DNA from: Rhizobium sp. FKL33
GTDB lineage: Bacteria > Pseudomonadota > Alphaproteobacteria > Rhizobiales > Rhizobiaceae
Reading direction: 5' to 3'
Length of the DNA stretch: 64,000 bases
NCBI RefSeq assembly: GCF_005222915.1
Contig: NZ_STFX01000022.1
Location: 1 to 64,000 of the forward strand
Position numbers and translations under genes: made by a program. This document shows, in pieces, positions 11,606 to 16,122 of this stretch. Numbering within the stretch: the stretch's first letter is position 1; each line of letters begins with the position of its first letter. A model generated the notes under the pieces. It saw nothing but the letters and a program-made list of their open reading frames with translations. It searched no databases and was not told the DNA's origin.

Positions 11606-11690
11606 GCGGACATGGCGGAACTGGTAGACGCAAGGGACTTAAAATCCCTCGAGCTTGCTCGTACGGGTTCGATTCCCGTTGTCCGCACCA
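11606..11690 (+). tRNA. tRNA-Leu, anticodon UAA
   Basis: An 85-nt cloverleaf. The acceptor stem is GCGGACA/TGTCCGC. The D arm reads GCGG...CGC with AACTGGTAGA. The anticodon stem AGGGA/TCCCT has loop CTTAAAA, so the anticodon is TAA at 11640-11642. The long class II variable arm is CGAGCTTGCTCG. The T arm reads ACGGG-TTCGATT-CCCGT and CCA is encoded. The long variable arm with UAA fits leucine. Confidence 0.97.
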
Positions 11691-12211: not shown

Positions 12212-12724
12212 ATGCTTGCACGCCAGATCTCGCTCTTGACCGCCGCCCTTGCGGCGCTCGCAGTTCAGTTTGGACCCGCGCTCGCGCTCGATAAGCCGAC
12301 GGGCGACGTCGTCCTCACTGTCACCGGCGCAATCGACGACATCAATAGCGGCTCCGCCGCCGAATTCGACATGGCGATGCTGGAAAAACTGCCCGGCCGT
12401 GCGGCCACGCTCGAAACGCCCTGGACCCAGGGCAAAGTCACCTTCTCCGGTCCCTTCATGGCCGAACTGATGAAAGCCGTGGGCGCGCATGGCAAGACGC
12501 TGCGCGTCTCCGCGCTCAACGACTACACCGTGGAAGTGCCGCTTTCGGACGCCACCGACATCAAGACGATCCTCGCCACGCGCATGAACGACGAGCCGAT
12601 GTCGGTGCGCGACAAGGGACCGCTGTTCATTATCTACCCCTTCGACCTCGACCCTTCTCTCTATAATGAGAAATATTTCTCGCGGTCGGTCTGGCAGATC
12701 AAATCGATCGAGGTCATCGAGTGA
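12212..12724 (+). CDS. Periplasmic SUOX-fold (molybdopterin oxidoreductase-like) protein without cysteine
   Basis: 170 residues. MLARQISLLTAALAALAVQF... is a signal peptide cleaved near A-L-A. The mature part resembles the small oxidoreductase molybdopterin-binding (sulfite oxidase fold, PF00174-like) domain. Visible elements are V-L-T-V-T-G-A-I, F-D-M-A-M-L-E-K-L-P, W-T-Q-G-K-V-T-F-S-G-P-F-M-A-E-L-M, L-N-D-Y-T-V-E-V-P and G-P-L-F-I-I-Y-P-F-D. The protein has no cysteine at all, whereas true sulfite-oxidase/MsrP enzymes bind molybdenum through one. It is therefore probably not a Mo enzyme and may be a ligand-binding sensor. Its stop overlaps the GTG start of the sensor kinase by four bases, so the two are translationally coupled. 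Confidence 0.8.
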   Translation: MLARQISLLTAALAALAVQFGPALALDKPTGDVVLTVTGAIDDINSGSAAEFDMAMLEKLPGRAATLETPWTQGKVTFSGPFMAELMKAVGAHGKTLRVSALNDYTVEVPLSDATDIKTILATRMNDEPMSVRDKGPLFIIYPFDLDPSLYNEKYFSRSVWQIKSIEVIE

Positions 12725-14970
12725 CCAGCCCCATGCAGGAAAGCGACGTCATCCGCAAAGCCGGCAAGACGACCGCCGTGCTGCAGGTCTTCGCTGTCCT
12801 GCTGCTGGGGCTACTCGGTTCTCTCTATTACGATATCTCATCCCGCTATTCGGCGCTGCAGAGCGGCATCCGCGAAAACGCCATGTGGTCGGTCTACCAG
12901 CTGGACCGAGAAGCGCGTCGACTACGGGAGGTGGTGTCGATCGCCATCGCCAGATCTGACACGTCAGCCGCCTCGCAGAAGGAAATATCGCTTCGCTATG
13001 ACATCCTCTATTCACGCATGGCGATGCTCGAAAAGGCCAATTTCGAGGAAAACTTCAAGGTCGACGCCACCGTTCGCAAACAGCTGACGGAAATCCGCCG
13101 CACGGTCTTTCAAAACGCCCCGCTGTTCGACGACATCGCCGCAAAGAAGACGGTATCGATCGCAAGCCTCCGCATTCTCCAAATTCAACTCCAAGCGCTG
13201 ACCGTCAACAGCGAACATCTGCTGACCTACACCAACACGACGCTCAGCGCCGACCGCGCCGACGCCCGCCAGACATTGCAGGCGCTGGAAATGAAGTCGC
13301 TGTCGCTGATCGTTCTGCTGGTCGCTTCGGTGGGCTTCCTGATCTTCACCCTGCGCCGGCAGTTGCGCAGCGTCCGCGCCGCCGGCCTCAGCCTCGAGAC
13401 CATGGCCGGCAATCTCAACAACGCCTATCAGGCGGCAGAAGCAGGCAATCGCGCCAAATCGCAATTCATGGCGACGATGGGCCACGAGATCCGGACACCA
13501 CTCAACGCGATTCTCGGCATGGTCGAACTGATGGAGCTGAAGAAGCTGCCGGTGGAGTGCCTGGACAATCTGCGTACCATCCGCGGCGCAGGCGAAGCGC
13601 TGCTCGACATCATCAACGAGATCCTTGATTTCGCCAAGATCGAGCACGGCAATCTCGAGCTGGAATACCGTATCGTCGACATCAGAGCGCTGGCCGAATC
13701 CGCCACGGAAATGATGCGCGGCCGCGCCGCCGAGGCGGGCAATACAATCGAGCTGGATATGCCGGCAGTGCTTTCCGCCCCCTATATCCATTCCGATCCC
13801 ACCCGTCTGCGGCAGATCGTGCTCAATCTGATGAGCAATGCGGTCAAATTCACCGCCAATGGCGCGGTAACCCTTCGGATCCGCGAAACCGGAACCGAGC
13901 GTGCGCCCCGCCTGCGCATCGAGGTCAAGGACACCGGCATCGGCATCGACGAGAGCGGCCGCGCCAAGCTGTTCAAGCCCTTCTCGCAGGTCGACGCCTC
14001 GATCAGTCGCAAATATGGCGGCACCGGACTGGGCCTGACCATCTGCAAGCAGATCGTCGATCGCTTCGGCGGCGAAATGGGCGTCGACAGCGTGCCGGGC
14101 CTCGGCAGCAAATTCTGGTTCGAGATCCCGGCGCCCCGCTCGGAACTCGCGCCGCCCAACCATAAGTCTGAAAACGCCCCAGCCAACGCTCTGCCCAAAC
14201 TCACGGTGCTGGCGGTAGAAGACAACAAAGTCAATCAGCAGGTCATCCGTCGCTTTCTGGAGCATCTCGGCCAGGAGGTCCATCTCGCCGACGATGGCGC
14301 GCAGGCCGTGGAGTTCGCCTCCGGCAAGCGCTTCGACCTCATCCTGATGGACATGCAGATGCCGGTGATGGACGGCATCGAGGCGACGCGCCGCATCAAG
14401 GCGCTGCCGGCGCCGTTCAGCCAGACGCCGATCTGGGCCATGACCGCCAACGCCTCCGAGGACGATCGCATCGCCTGCGAGGAAGCCGGCATGGAAGGCT
14501 TCCATTCCAAGCCGGTGTCGATGATCCAGCTCCGGCAGCTCATCACCGATCTCGGCCGGTCGGCGCCGCGCATGCCGCTGGAAACGCCGTCGACGCCAGT
14601 CGTGAAGGAGGAGGACGTTATCATGGTGGAGACGCCGCCCAAGCAGCAGGACGACGCCTGGAAACGCCCGTTCGACCTGCGTCGCCAGGAAATCGCAGAC
14701 GCCCTGGGCGACGAGGTTTTCCAGGAACTGCTCGTCGATTTCTTCGAAGACTCCGATCGTCTGCTGCGCGAGCTTCTCGCAGCCTACGACGCCCGCCAGT
14801 CCGAAAAACTCGATCCGATGCTGCACAATCTCAAGGGCGCGGCAGCCAATGTCGGCCTGGCGGACATCGCTGCCACTGCGCAGCATATGCGGAACAACCA
14901 TCCGAGCCGCACCGAGCTCGAAACACTGTCAACGAACATCGCCAGCCGCAAAATGATGCTGGCGGCCTAA
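12721..14970 (+). CDS. Hybrid sensor histidine kinase with receiver and HPt domains
   Basis: 749 residues. TM1 is at about 18-36, with a helical periplasmic region to about 190 and TM2 at about 193-211. HisKA has H255 in F-M-A-T-M-G-H-E-I-R-T-P-L-N. HATPase_c lies at about 300-480, with N box L-N-L-M-S-N-A-V-K-F and G boxes D-T-G-I-G-I-D and G-G-T-G-L-G-L-T. A receiver spans about 494-610 (E-D-N-K, D544 in L-M-D-M-Q-M-P). The C-terminal HPt contains H702 in L-H-N-L-K-G-A-A. It thus carries a full His-Asp-His relay. I start at the GTG overlapping the previous stop; an ATG four codons in is the alternative. The next gene, an HD-GYP regulator 11 bp on, is the likely target. Confidence 0.95.
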   Translation: MTSPMQESDVIRKAGKTTAVLQVFAVLLLGLLGSLYYDISSRYSALQSGIRENAMWSVYQLDREARRLREVVSIAIARSDTSAASQKEISLRYDILYSRMAMLEKANFEENFKVDATVRKQLTEIRRTVFQNAPLFDDIAAKKTVSIASLRILQIQLQALTVNSEHLLTYTNTTLSADRADARQTLQALEMKSLSLIVLLVASVGFLIFTLRRQLRSVRAAGLSLETMAGNLNNAYQAAEAGNRAKSQFMATMGHEIRTPLNAILGMVELMELKKLPVECLDNLRTIRGAGEALLDIINEILDFAKIEHGNLELEYRIVDIRALAESATEMMRGRAAEAGNTIELDMPAVLSAPYIHSDPTRLRQIVLNLMSNAVKFTANGAVTLRIRETGTERAPRLRIEVKDTGIGIDESGRAKLFKPFSQVDASISRKYGGTGLGLTICKQIVDRFGGEMGVDSVPGLGSKFWFEIPAPRSELAPPNHKSENAPANALPKLTVLAVEDNKVNQQVIRRFLEHLGQEVHLADDGAQAVEFASGKRFDLILMDMQMPVMDGIEATRRIKALPAPFSQTPIWAMTANASEDDRIACEEAGMEGFHSKPVSMIQLRQLITDLGRSAPRMPLETPSTPVVKEEDVIMVETPPKQQDDAWKRPFDLRRQEIADALGDEVFQELLVDFFEDSDRLLRELLAAYDARQSEKLDPMLHNLKGAAANVGLADIAATAQHMRNNHPSRTELETLSTNIASRKMMLAA

Positions 14971-14981
14971 GGGGGTAGACA

Positions 14982-16055
14982 ATGCGCATACTTCTCGTAG
15001 ACGACAACAAGACCAACCTGACCATCCTCACCAAGCTGGTCGAGAAGCTGGACGGCTGCATTCCGCTGCCCTTCATCAGCCCCGAAGACGCGCTGTCGGA
15101 AATGCCGGAACTCGATTTCGACATCGGCATCGTCGATTTCCAGATGCCCGTCTACACAGGCGTCGATTTCCTGATCGAGACGATGCGCTTCGACAAATAC
15201 AAGGACAAGCCCTTCGTCTTCGTCACCGTCGACACCGACCTCGCCACCCGCATGGCGGCGCTGAACGCCGGGGCGATCGACTTTCTGACCAAGCCGATCA
15301 ATCCACTCGAATTCACCGCGCGCATCCGCAATCTGGTCGCGCTCGCCGACGCCCGCAACAAGCTGGCCGACAAGGCGGAATGGCTGCGCATGGAGGTCGA
15401 CAAGGCGGTGGGCGAGCTGCGCGCCCGCGAAGAGGAAATCATCTATCGCCTGACGCTCGCCGCAGGCTACAAGGATCCGGAAACCGGTCGCCACACCATG
15501 CGCGTCGGGCTCTATTCCGAAGCCATCGCCAAGGCCTACGGCCTGTCGCCCGAAGTAGCGGCCGACATTCGTCTTGCCGCGCCGATGCATGACATCGGCA
15601 AGGTCGGCATCGCCGACGAGATCCTGTTGAAGCAGGGCAAGTTGACCGAGCAGGAATTTGCCGAAATGCAGCGGCATACGTTGGTCGGCGGCCAGATCCT
15701 CGGCCAGTCGCGTTCGAGCCTGCTGCAACTCGCCGCCGAGATCGCCTCGTCGCATCACGAGCGCTGGGACGGCCAGGGCTATCCGCTTCGCCTGCAGGGC
15801 GCGTCAATCCCGCTGGCGGGCCGCATCGTCGCCATCGCCGACAATTTCGACGCGCTGACCACCGCCCGCCCCTACAAGGAGCCCTGGACGGCGGATCAAG
15901 CGTCGGAACATATCGTGCGCCGGGCGGGAAGCCAGTTCGATCCGAGCTGCGTTGCGGCGTTCAAGGCGGCCCTGCCTGAAATCCTCCGCATCATGCGCGA
16001 CAATTCGGTCGCCGATGACGCGCCCTTCTGTCTGCCCGCTCAGGCCGTCGCCTGA
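14982..16055 (+). CDS. Response regulator with HD-GYP c-di-GMP phosphodiesterase domain
   Basis: 357 residues. Receiver 1-125 has D-D-N-K, phospho-acceptor D52 in I-V-D-F-Q-M-P and K in F-L-T-K-P-I-N. A coiled linker runs 125-150. HD-GYP covers 150-350, with the H-D pair at 203-204 (M-H-D-I-G-K) and H-H-E-R-W-D-G-Q-G-Y-P starting at 258. All metal ligands of active enzymes appear present, so c-di-GMP hydrolysis is expected, lowering the messenger and favouring motility. It is the last gene of the three-gene signalling operon, followed by a bidirectional terminator. Confidence 0.95.
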   Translation: MRILLVDDNKTNLTILTKLVEKLDGCIPLPFISPEDALSEMPELDFDIGIVDFQMPVYTGVDFLIETMRFDKYKDKPFVFVTVDTDLATRMAALNAGAIDFLTKPINPLEFTARIRNLVALADARNKLADKAEWLRMEVDKAVGELRAREEEIIYRLTLAAGYKDPETGRHTMRVGLYSEAIAKAYGLSPEVAADIRLAAPMHDIGKVGIADEILLKQGKLTEQEFAEMQRHTLVGGQILGQSRSSLLQLAAEIASSHHERWDGQGYPLRLQGASIPLAGRIVAIADNFDALTTARPYKEPWTADQASEHIVRRAGSQFDPSCVAAFKAALPEILRIMRDNSVADDAPFCLPAQAVA

Positions 16056-16076
16056 TCTTTCTGAGCCCGCATATGG

Positions 16077-16100
16077 AAAAGGGCGCCGCGGCGCCCTTTT
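16077..16100. terminator. Bidirectional terminator between convergent genes
   Basis: Perfect inverted repeat AAAAGGGCGCCG/CGGCGCCCTTTT, with A and T runs built into the arms. It serves both the plus-strand HD-GYP gene and the minus-strand outer-membrane protein gene. Confidence 0.88.
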
Positions 16101-16122
16101 CTCGTTTGATCTGTCGCTCGGA

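Follow-up and report, generated by a model that had tools for sequence, protein, structure and literature searches.

Gene content of the locus

We analysed a stretch of 64,000 nucleotides from Rhizobium sp. FKL33 (assembly GCF_005222915.1, 5.3 Mb in 60 contigs), namely positions 1 to 64,000 of contig NZ_STFX01000022.1, which we call the window. It contains a unit of three same-strand genes with intact open reading frames (ORFs), coding for a putative periplasmic protein of the PruR family, a hybrid histidine kinase and a response regulator composed of a receiver (REC) and an HD-GYP domain (Table 1). The preliminary description of this DNA had reported three genes, a GTGA overlap at the first junction and a gap of 11 bp at the second, and we found these coordinates and junctions in the sequence. 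The overlap would couple the translation of pruR and the kinase gene, while the gap, TAAGGGGGTAGACAATG, carries an AAGGGGG stretch. Because the cassette recurs in other genera, it is more than a chance arrangement, and the explanation that the genes are mere neighbours was rejected on its recurrence in genomes of the family.

Table 1. Positions of the three genes and of the features at their junction and borders
Feature	Position	Strand	Basis or remark
tRNA-Leu (taa)	11606..11690	+	upstream boundary of the unit
pruR homologue, 170 residues	12212..12724	+	Pfam match, homology to solved pterin-binding chains
GTGA shared by the pruR stop and the kinase start codon	12721..12724	+	read in the sequence
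DTB-type hybrid kinase, 749 residues, GTG start	12721..14970	+	HisKA, HATPase_c, REC, Hpt
REC-HD-GYP response regulator, 357 residues	14982..16055	+	REC and HD-GYP domains
Terminator-like hairpin of 12 pairs, 3′ of the third gene	16075..16102	+	hairpin scan

Assignment of the first protein to PruR

The product of the first gene matched PF00174 (Oxidored_molyb) in Pfam with 31 bits against a cut-off of 24. The closest solved chains are all named 'Pterin Binding Protein', 7rkb with an E-value of 2.1e-39 and 7kos/7kou with 2.5e-36 (7kos over residues 26-166); weaker matches were 7kp2 (E 3.9e-22) and 7kom (3.4e-19). According to PMC13259868, 7KOS is the PruR of Agrobacterium tumefaciens and 7KP2 that of Vibrio cholerae. 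Judged by these matches, the product of 170 residues belongs to the PruR family and has, by homology of sequence, a SUOX-type fold. PruR proteins are characterised by a length of about 170 residues and an N-terminal secretion signal, and the window protein has this length and a hydrophobic leader at residues 8-26, as seen by hydropathy, which stood in for signal-peptide prediction. In the alignment to 7kos its pocket positions N103, Y105 and W161 fall on N102, Y104 and W160, which are tied to pterin binding in the A. tumefaciens protein (PMC13259868). All three are invariant in the 31 cassettes that we aligned, a set that omits L006 (same contig as L087).

The protein was described earlier as SUOX-type and free of cysteine, and both statements were confirmed. 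A conserved molybdenum ligand was also looked for among the relatives, and the mature domain has no cysteine in 31 of 31 aligned cassettes; where cysteines occur, in some of the rows, they are confined to the leader. These counts bear on the possibility that the protein is a subunit of a molybdoenzyme similar to MsrP or sulfite oxidase, with an unusual ligand and with the kinase as a coincidental neighbour. The PF00174 match speaks for it, as does the sole NCBIfam match, SorT, at an E-value of 0.15 and far below the cut-off. Molybdoenzymes of the SUOX/MsrP kind are however recognised by a cysteine ligand, and the window protein has no residue to provide it. PruR proteins are reported to lack this cysteine and to have a truncated pocket (PMC13259868). 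Considering the missing cysteines and the pterin-binding homologues, together with the conserved linkage to the kinase, we regard a molybdoenzyme as extremely improbable and rejected it. A comparison with E. coli MsrP by hhalign, meant to place the lost cysteine, yielded an alignment of probability 0.2 that ran over the wrong region.

As for the ligand, the pocket may have been re-purposed in this clade and the cassette may answer to some non-pterin small molecule, which would be compatible with the other readings discussed here. The cognate pterin still needs work even for the PruR of A. tumefaciens (PMC13259868). On the other hand, N103, Y105 and W161 are invariant in 49 kinase-linked PruRs, and we give a non-pterin ligand only a slim chance.

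The hybrid kinase and the REC-HD-GYP regulator

In the kinase, HisKA, HATPase_c, REC and Hpt domains were each found above the Pfam cut-off. The best NCBIfam match of the kinase core was TorS, with 405 bits against a cut-off of 676.5 and thus below it. The complete His-Asp-His relay noted earlier was recovered as H255 (HisKA), D544 (REC) and H702 (HPt), and these residues are invariant in all 31 aligned cassettes. Two hydrophobic regions, at about residues 17-41 and 186-211, were recognised by hydropathy in place of a transmembrane prediction, and between them lies a WX7E motif (W56-S-V-Y-Q-L-D-R-E64). The motif is present in the kinase input region of 30 of the 31 cassettes. In the exception, L004 (G002:C1), the input region, encoded by the 5′ part of the kinase gene, is divided between two reading frames, which is either an assembly error or a real break.

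Two arrangements of PruR genes are described in PMC13259868. In one the gene that follows codes for DcpA, and in the other, named PruR-DTB, it codes for a sensor kinase whose periplasmic region is of the DcpA type and contains WX7E. As in the PruR-DTB system of Ruegeria pomeroyi (WP_011045932.1, PMC13259868), the window has pruR directly 5′ of a kinase gene and WX7E in the predicted periplasmic region, and these features place the kinase in the PruR-DTB type. The systems presented under this name in the main text of PMC13259868 are, however, two-gene operons, whereas the window kinase has a C-terminal HPt domain and a third gene for a REC-HD-GYP protein follows, which adds to the form described there. 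The terms 'response regulator', 'phosphorelay', 'HPt' and 'RpfC' are absent from that main text. In literature screened by title and the start of the abstract we did not meet the form with PruR, an HPt-bearing kinase and HD-GYP, although Greenwich et al. 2024 (PNAS) may mention it. The sensor and kinase half is thus already described; what is less familiar is the third gene, which is conserved.

The HD-GYP part of the third protein matched the solved phosphohydrolase 4mcw (E 6e-55). All residues aligned to it, E167, H171, H203, D204, H232, H258, H259 and D287, are present, and we take these eight positions to be the metal ligands of such enzymes. The earlier view of an active-looking phosphodiesterase is consistent with this predicted set. 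The receiver has D52 and K104, and D52 is invariant in 31 of 31 aligned cassettes. The HD-GYP residue set is kept in 27 of the 31 rows; in seven of these the first position has Asp instead of Glu.

A precedent for a hybrid kinase acting on an HD-GYP regulator is RpfC-RpfG of Xanthomonas (PMC5391125). The window unit likewise pairs an HK-REC-HPt kinase with a REC-HD-GYP regulator, every phospho-site being present, and by this analogy RpfC-RpfG is the closest working precedent for its output half. The input differs, as RpfC senses the fatty acid DSF (diffusible signal factor) via transmembrane helices and a periplasmic stretch of 22 residues (PMC5391125), while in the window kinase about 145 residues separate two predicted transmembrane regions and the partner is PruR, and on this account the unit does not belong to RpfC-RpfG. 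With PruR-DcpA of A. tumefaciens it shares the family of the periplasmic pterin sensor (7kos) and the second messenger, cyclic di-GMP (c-di-GMP). DcpA, however, combines input, GGDEF and EAL domains in one protein, whereas in the window the input would reach HD-GYP via a phosphorelay.

Linkage of PruR and HD-GYP in the family

We surveyed 199 genomes of the family and found PruR in 81 of them (104 places, E <= 1e-8) and HD-GYP relatives in 49 (74 places, E <= 1e-30, with the ten best candidates per genome scored). A REC-HD-GYP gene lies on the same strand within 2.6 kb of all 24 PruR places with identities of 55 % or more; this threshold and that for HD-GYP given below were chosen after the gap had been seen in the lists (the next PruR place is at 51 % or less). 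The HD-GYP gene lies downstream in 23 of these places (2.2-2.6 kb) and upstream in one (0.1 kb plus its own length). Below 55 % identity, a REC-HD-GYP gene within 15 kb was found in 0 of 80 places. Conversely, HD-GYP places with at least 48 % identity were paired in 24 of 24 cases and the others in 0 of 50 on the same strand; one unpaired HD-GYP paralogue, in G492, lies 6.5 kb away on the opposite strand. Among the cassettes, the HD-GYP gene precedes pruR in L051, L054 and L055, and since the gene order varies in this way, the linkage has outlived rearrangement. Within these genomes, the linkage of PruR and HD-GYP is genuine and restricted to one clade.

In mirror comparisons across the 31 cassettes, rho was 0.79 for kinase core and HD-GYP and 0.39 for PruR and the kinase input region; made with no species-tree control, these comparisons decide nothing.

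PruR phylogeny and survey of the class

The tree of PruR comprised 62 rows, after L048, L049 and L087 (duplicates) and L078 (weak) had been dropped. All 31 cassette rows fall in one group, in which 30 are united with supports of 99/95 and L055 joins at 81/0. In another family of the class, L103 (G331) and L104 (G250) combine PruR with an HK-REC-HPt kinase and a REC-DUF3369-HD-GYP protein, whose receiver is just under the Pfam cut-off in L103 and just over it in L104. Their PruRs lie on a branch apart from the cassettes, together with three DcpA-linked PruRs (98/91), so that a different HD-GYP regulator is paired with PruR there. The starred branches of the tree force at least two changes of label, so the pairing of PruR and HD-GYP originated twice, or was acquired and lost again.

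At the level of the class, we obtained 62 stretches from 65 non-own PruR places (G146:C5 and G193:C40 were left out and the second G282 place falls inside the stretch of the first) and counted hits on the same strand from -3.5 to +6.5 kb of pruR, using profiles that were trained partly on L103 and L104 themselves. The preliminary description had treated relatives without linkage to kinases as evidence against a sensor; the neighbourhood search recovered a kinase partner in 46 of the 62 stretches, nine with an HPt domain and 37 without, and in 14 stretches no partner was recognised. An HD-GYP neighbour was found for two of the nine HPt kinases and for none of the 37 kinases lacking HPt, and as several stretches end at a contig end soon after pruR, such absences put a lower bound on pairing. 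HD-GYP pairing goes with HPt, as a relay would require, and HPt kinases are often found without an HD-GYP neighbour. HD-GYP as a general partner of PruR was rejected, being confined to one PruR clade and L103/L104 among the places examined. Two metagenome-assembled genomes whose names place them outside Proteobacteria, one named as Chloroflexi (L018) and one as Verrucomicrobia (L014), have a PruR-like gene followed by a sensor kinase, which may reflect transfer or a binning error.

Loss of HD-GYP residues in four cassettes

The four cassettes outside the 27 with a kept residue set have lost HD-GYP ligand residues while retaining the operon and D52. The residues at the eight positions are Q Q F D R Y R S/A in L052, L089 and L096, all from a single genus (g15); the protein of L009, with E H R D Q Y H S, is degenerate in part only. 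Since the PruRs of the four are sisters in the tree (97/87), the catalytic function of HD-GYP was probably lost once and progressively in their lineage. With the operon kept, this lineage is a natural contrast for non-catalytic roles of HD-GYP.

A receiver-domain match lies about 450-490 bp 5′ of pruR on the same strand in eight cassettes (L007, L009, L011, L052, L089, L096, L099 and L100), which include all four with a degenerate HD-GYP. Where ORFs were listed, namely for L007, L009, L011 and L052, the gene codes for 127-190 residues. Such four-gene units may possess a phosphate sink or a second output.

Both observations would suit a different reading, in which the main output of PruR-DTB is not hydrolysis by the neighbouring HD-GYP protein, either because another regulator receives the phosphate or because HD-GYP acts mainly as a phosphate-regulated binding partner. 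We hold this to be unlikely, as the window protein retains every aligned residue, the degeneration is confined to the one sister group and the set is kept in the other cassettes.

A second PruR in the same genome

Also in this genome (G000:C54) we found a gene for a PruR of 157 residues followed by one for a GGDEF-EAL protein of 660 residues, by gene content apparently a PruR-DcpA pair. The pair (L047, G000:C54:30243-41605) adjoins ORFs of 522 and 239 residues, which look to us like a trimethylamine methyltransferase and a corrinoid protein. This second PruR has Asp at the position of N103. Asn occupies that position in all 49 kinase-linked PruRs and in five of 13 DcpA-linked ones, the other eight having Asp, where a protein counts as DcpA-linked by a GG[DE]EF motif encoded downstream. 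A change from Asn to Asp in some PruR groups, with a possible bearing on pterin specificity, is mentioned in PMC13259868. With a pair of PruRs that differ in a pocket residue, this genome offers a natural contrast for pterin specificity. As a tentative idea, which we would not favour over its opposite, the two PruRs may let one cell sense two pterins, or two redox states, whose balance would determine c-di-GMP, and the phosphorelay to HD-GYP would be a second route from PruR to c-di-GMP beside PruR-DcpA, evolved apparently twice.

Concerning pterin metabolism, none of the 43 places of the genome with short-chain dehydrogenases/reductases (SDR) scored above the cut-off of the pteridine reductase model. 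The motif TGX3RXG, given as that of pteridine reductases in PMC13259868, occurs in one of the 43 (G000:C43:9882-10604), with 33 places evaluable and 10 stretches lacking a scorable SDR motif frame. This place is a PruA-like candidate and counts in favour of a pterin-responsive system.

Proposed mechanism

Drawing on the homology, motifs, gene order and conserved linkage observed above, we consider it quite probable that the unit is a pterin-responsive PruR-DTB system with its own output, c-di-GMP hydrolysis controlled via a phosphorelay. By analogy with what is known of the families, PruR would be exported to the periplasm and bind a small, probably reduced, pterin in its shortened SUOX pocket without molybdenum. 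A ligand-dependent state of PruR would then contact the kinase in the periplasmic region that bears WX7E and shift its kinase/phosphatase balance. Phosphate would pass from H255 to D544, H702 and finally D52 of the REC-HD-GYP protein, whose phosphorylation state would switch the c-di-GMP phosphodiesterase. The third gene looks like a lineage-specific addition.

An enzyme fold turned into a periplasmic sensor with a c-di-GMP output had been suggested in the preliminary description. Each part of this suggestion fits the homology, motifs and linkage found here, and the role of a sensor was retained, but for sensor and kinase the idea is already published, and the PruR family and the class of its ligand, a pterin, had been missed. 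Which cell functions are reached by pterin signals is left open in the Perspectives section of PMC13259868; the third gene, being conserved, points to one specific output, the hydrolysis of c-di-GMP, within one operon.

Several points weigh against the proposed system. The identity thresholds in the family survey were set post hoc, and absences are less firm than presences, given the scoring of the ten best HD-GYP candidates and contigs that end near pruR. The pairing in 24 of 24 places reflects one clade and its shared ancestry. In the mirror comparison, PruR and the kinase input region co-vary loosely (rho 0.39). L010 and L014 have no HD-GYP gene beside the kinase, and neither do seven of the nine HPt kinases of the class-level survey. 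The degenerate HD-GYP proteins imply that hydrolysis is not the output everywhere, and the upstream receiver of eight cassettes, which the window locus lacks, is a possible other acceptor of phosphate. The PruA-like candidate of the genome stays below the pteridine reductase cut-off, and its best model is PRK09134, an SDR model that names no substrate. Finally, all functional steps of the unit are ones that we infer from sequence.

Borders of the unit

A simple sigma-70 scan returned no promoter match in the region, with 0.9 expected. The hairpin scan gave seven terminator-like sites in the region against 4.5 in shuffled sequences, so the hairpin behind the third gene is favoured by its strength and position alone. 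By identity of the 170-residue protein, the nearest named relatives are Rhizobium sp. SG_E_25_P2 (86 %) and G21 (85 %). In both (L004 and L005) a tRNA-Leu gene likewise lies 5′ of the cassette.

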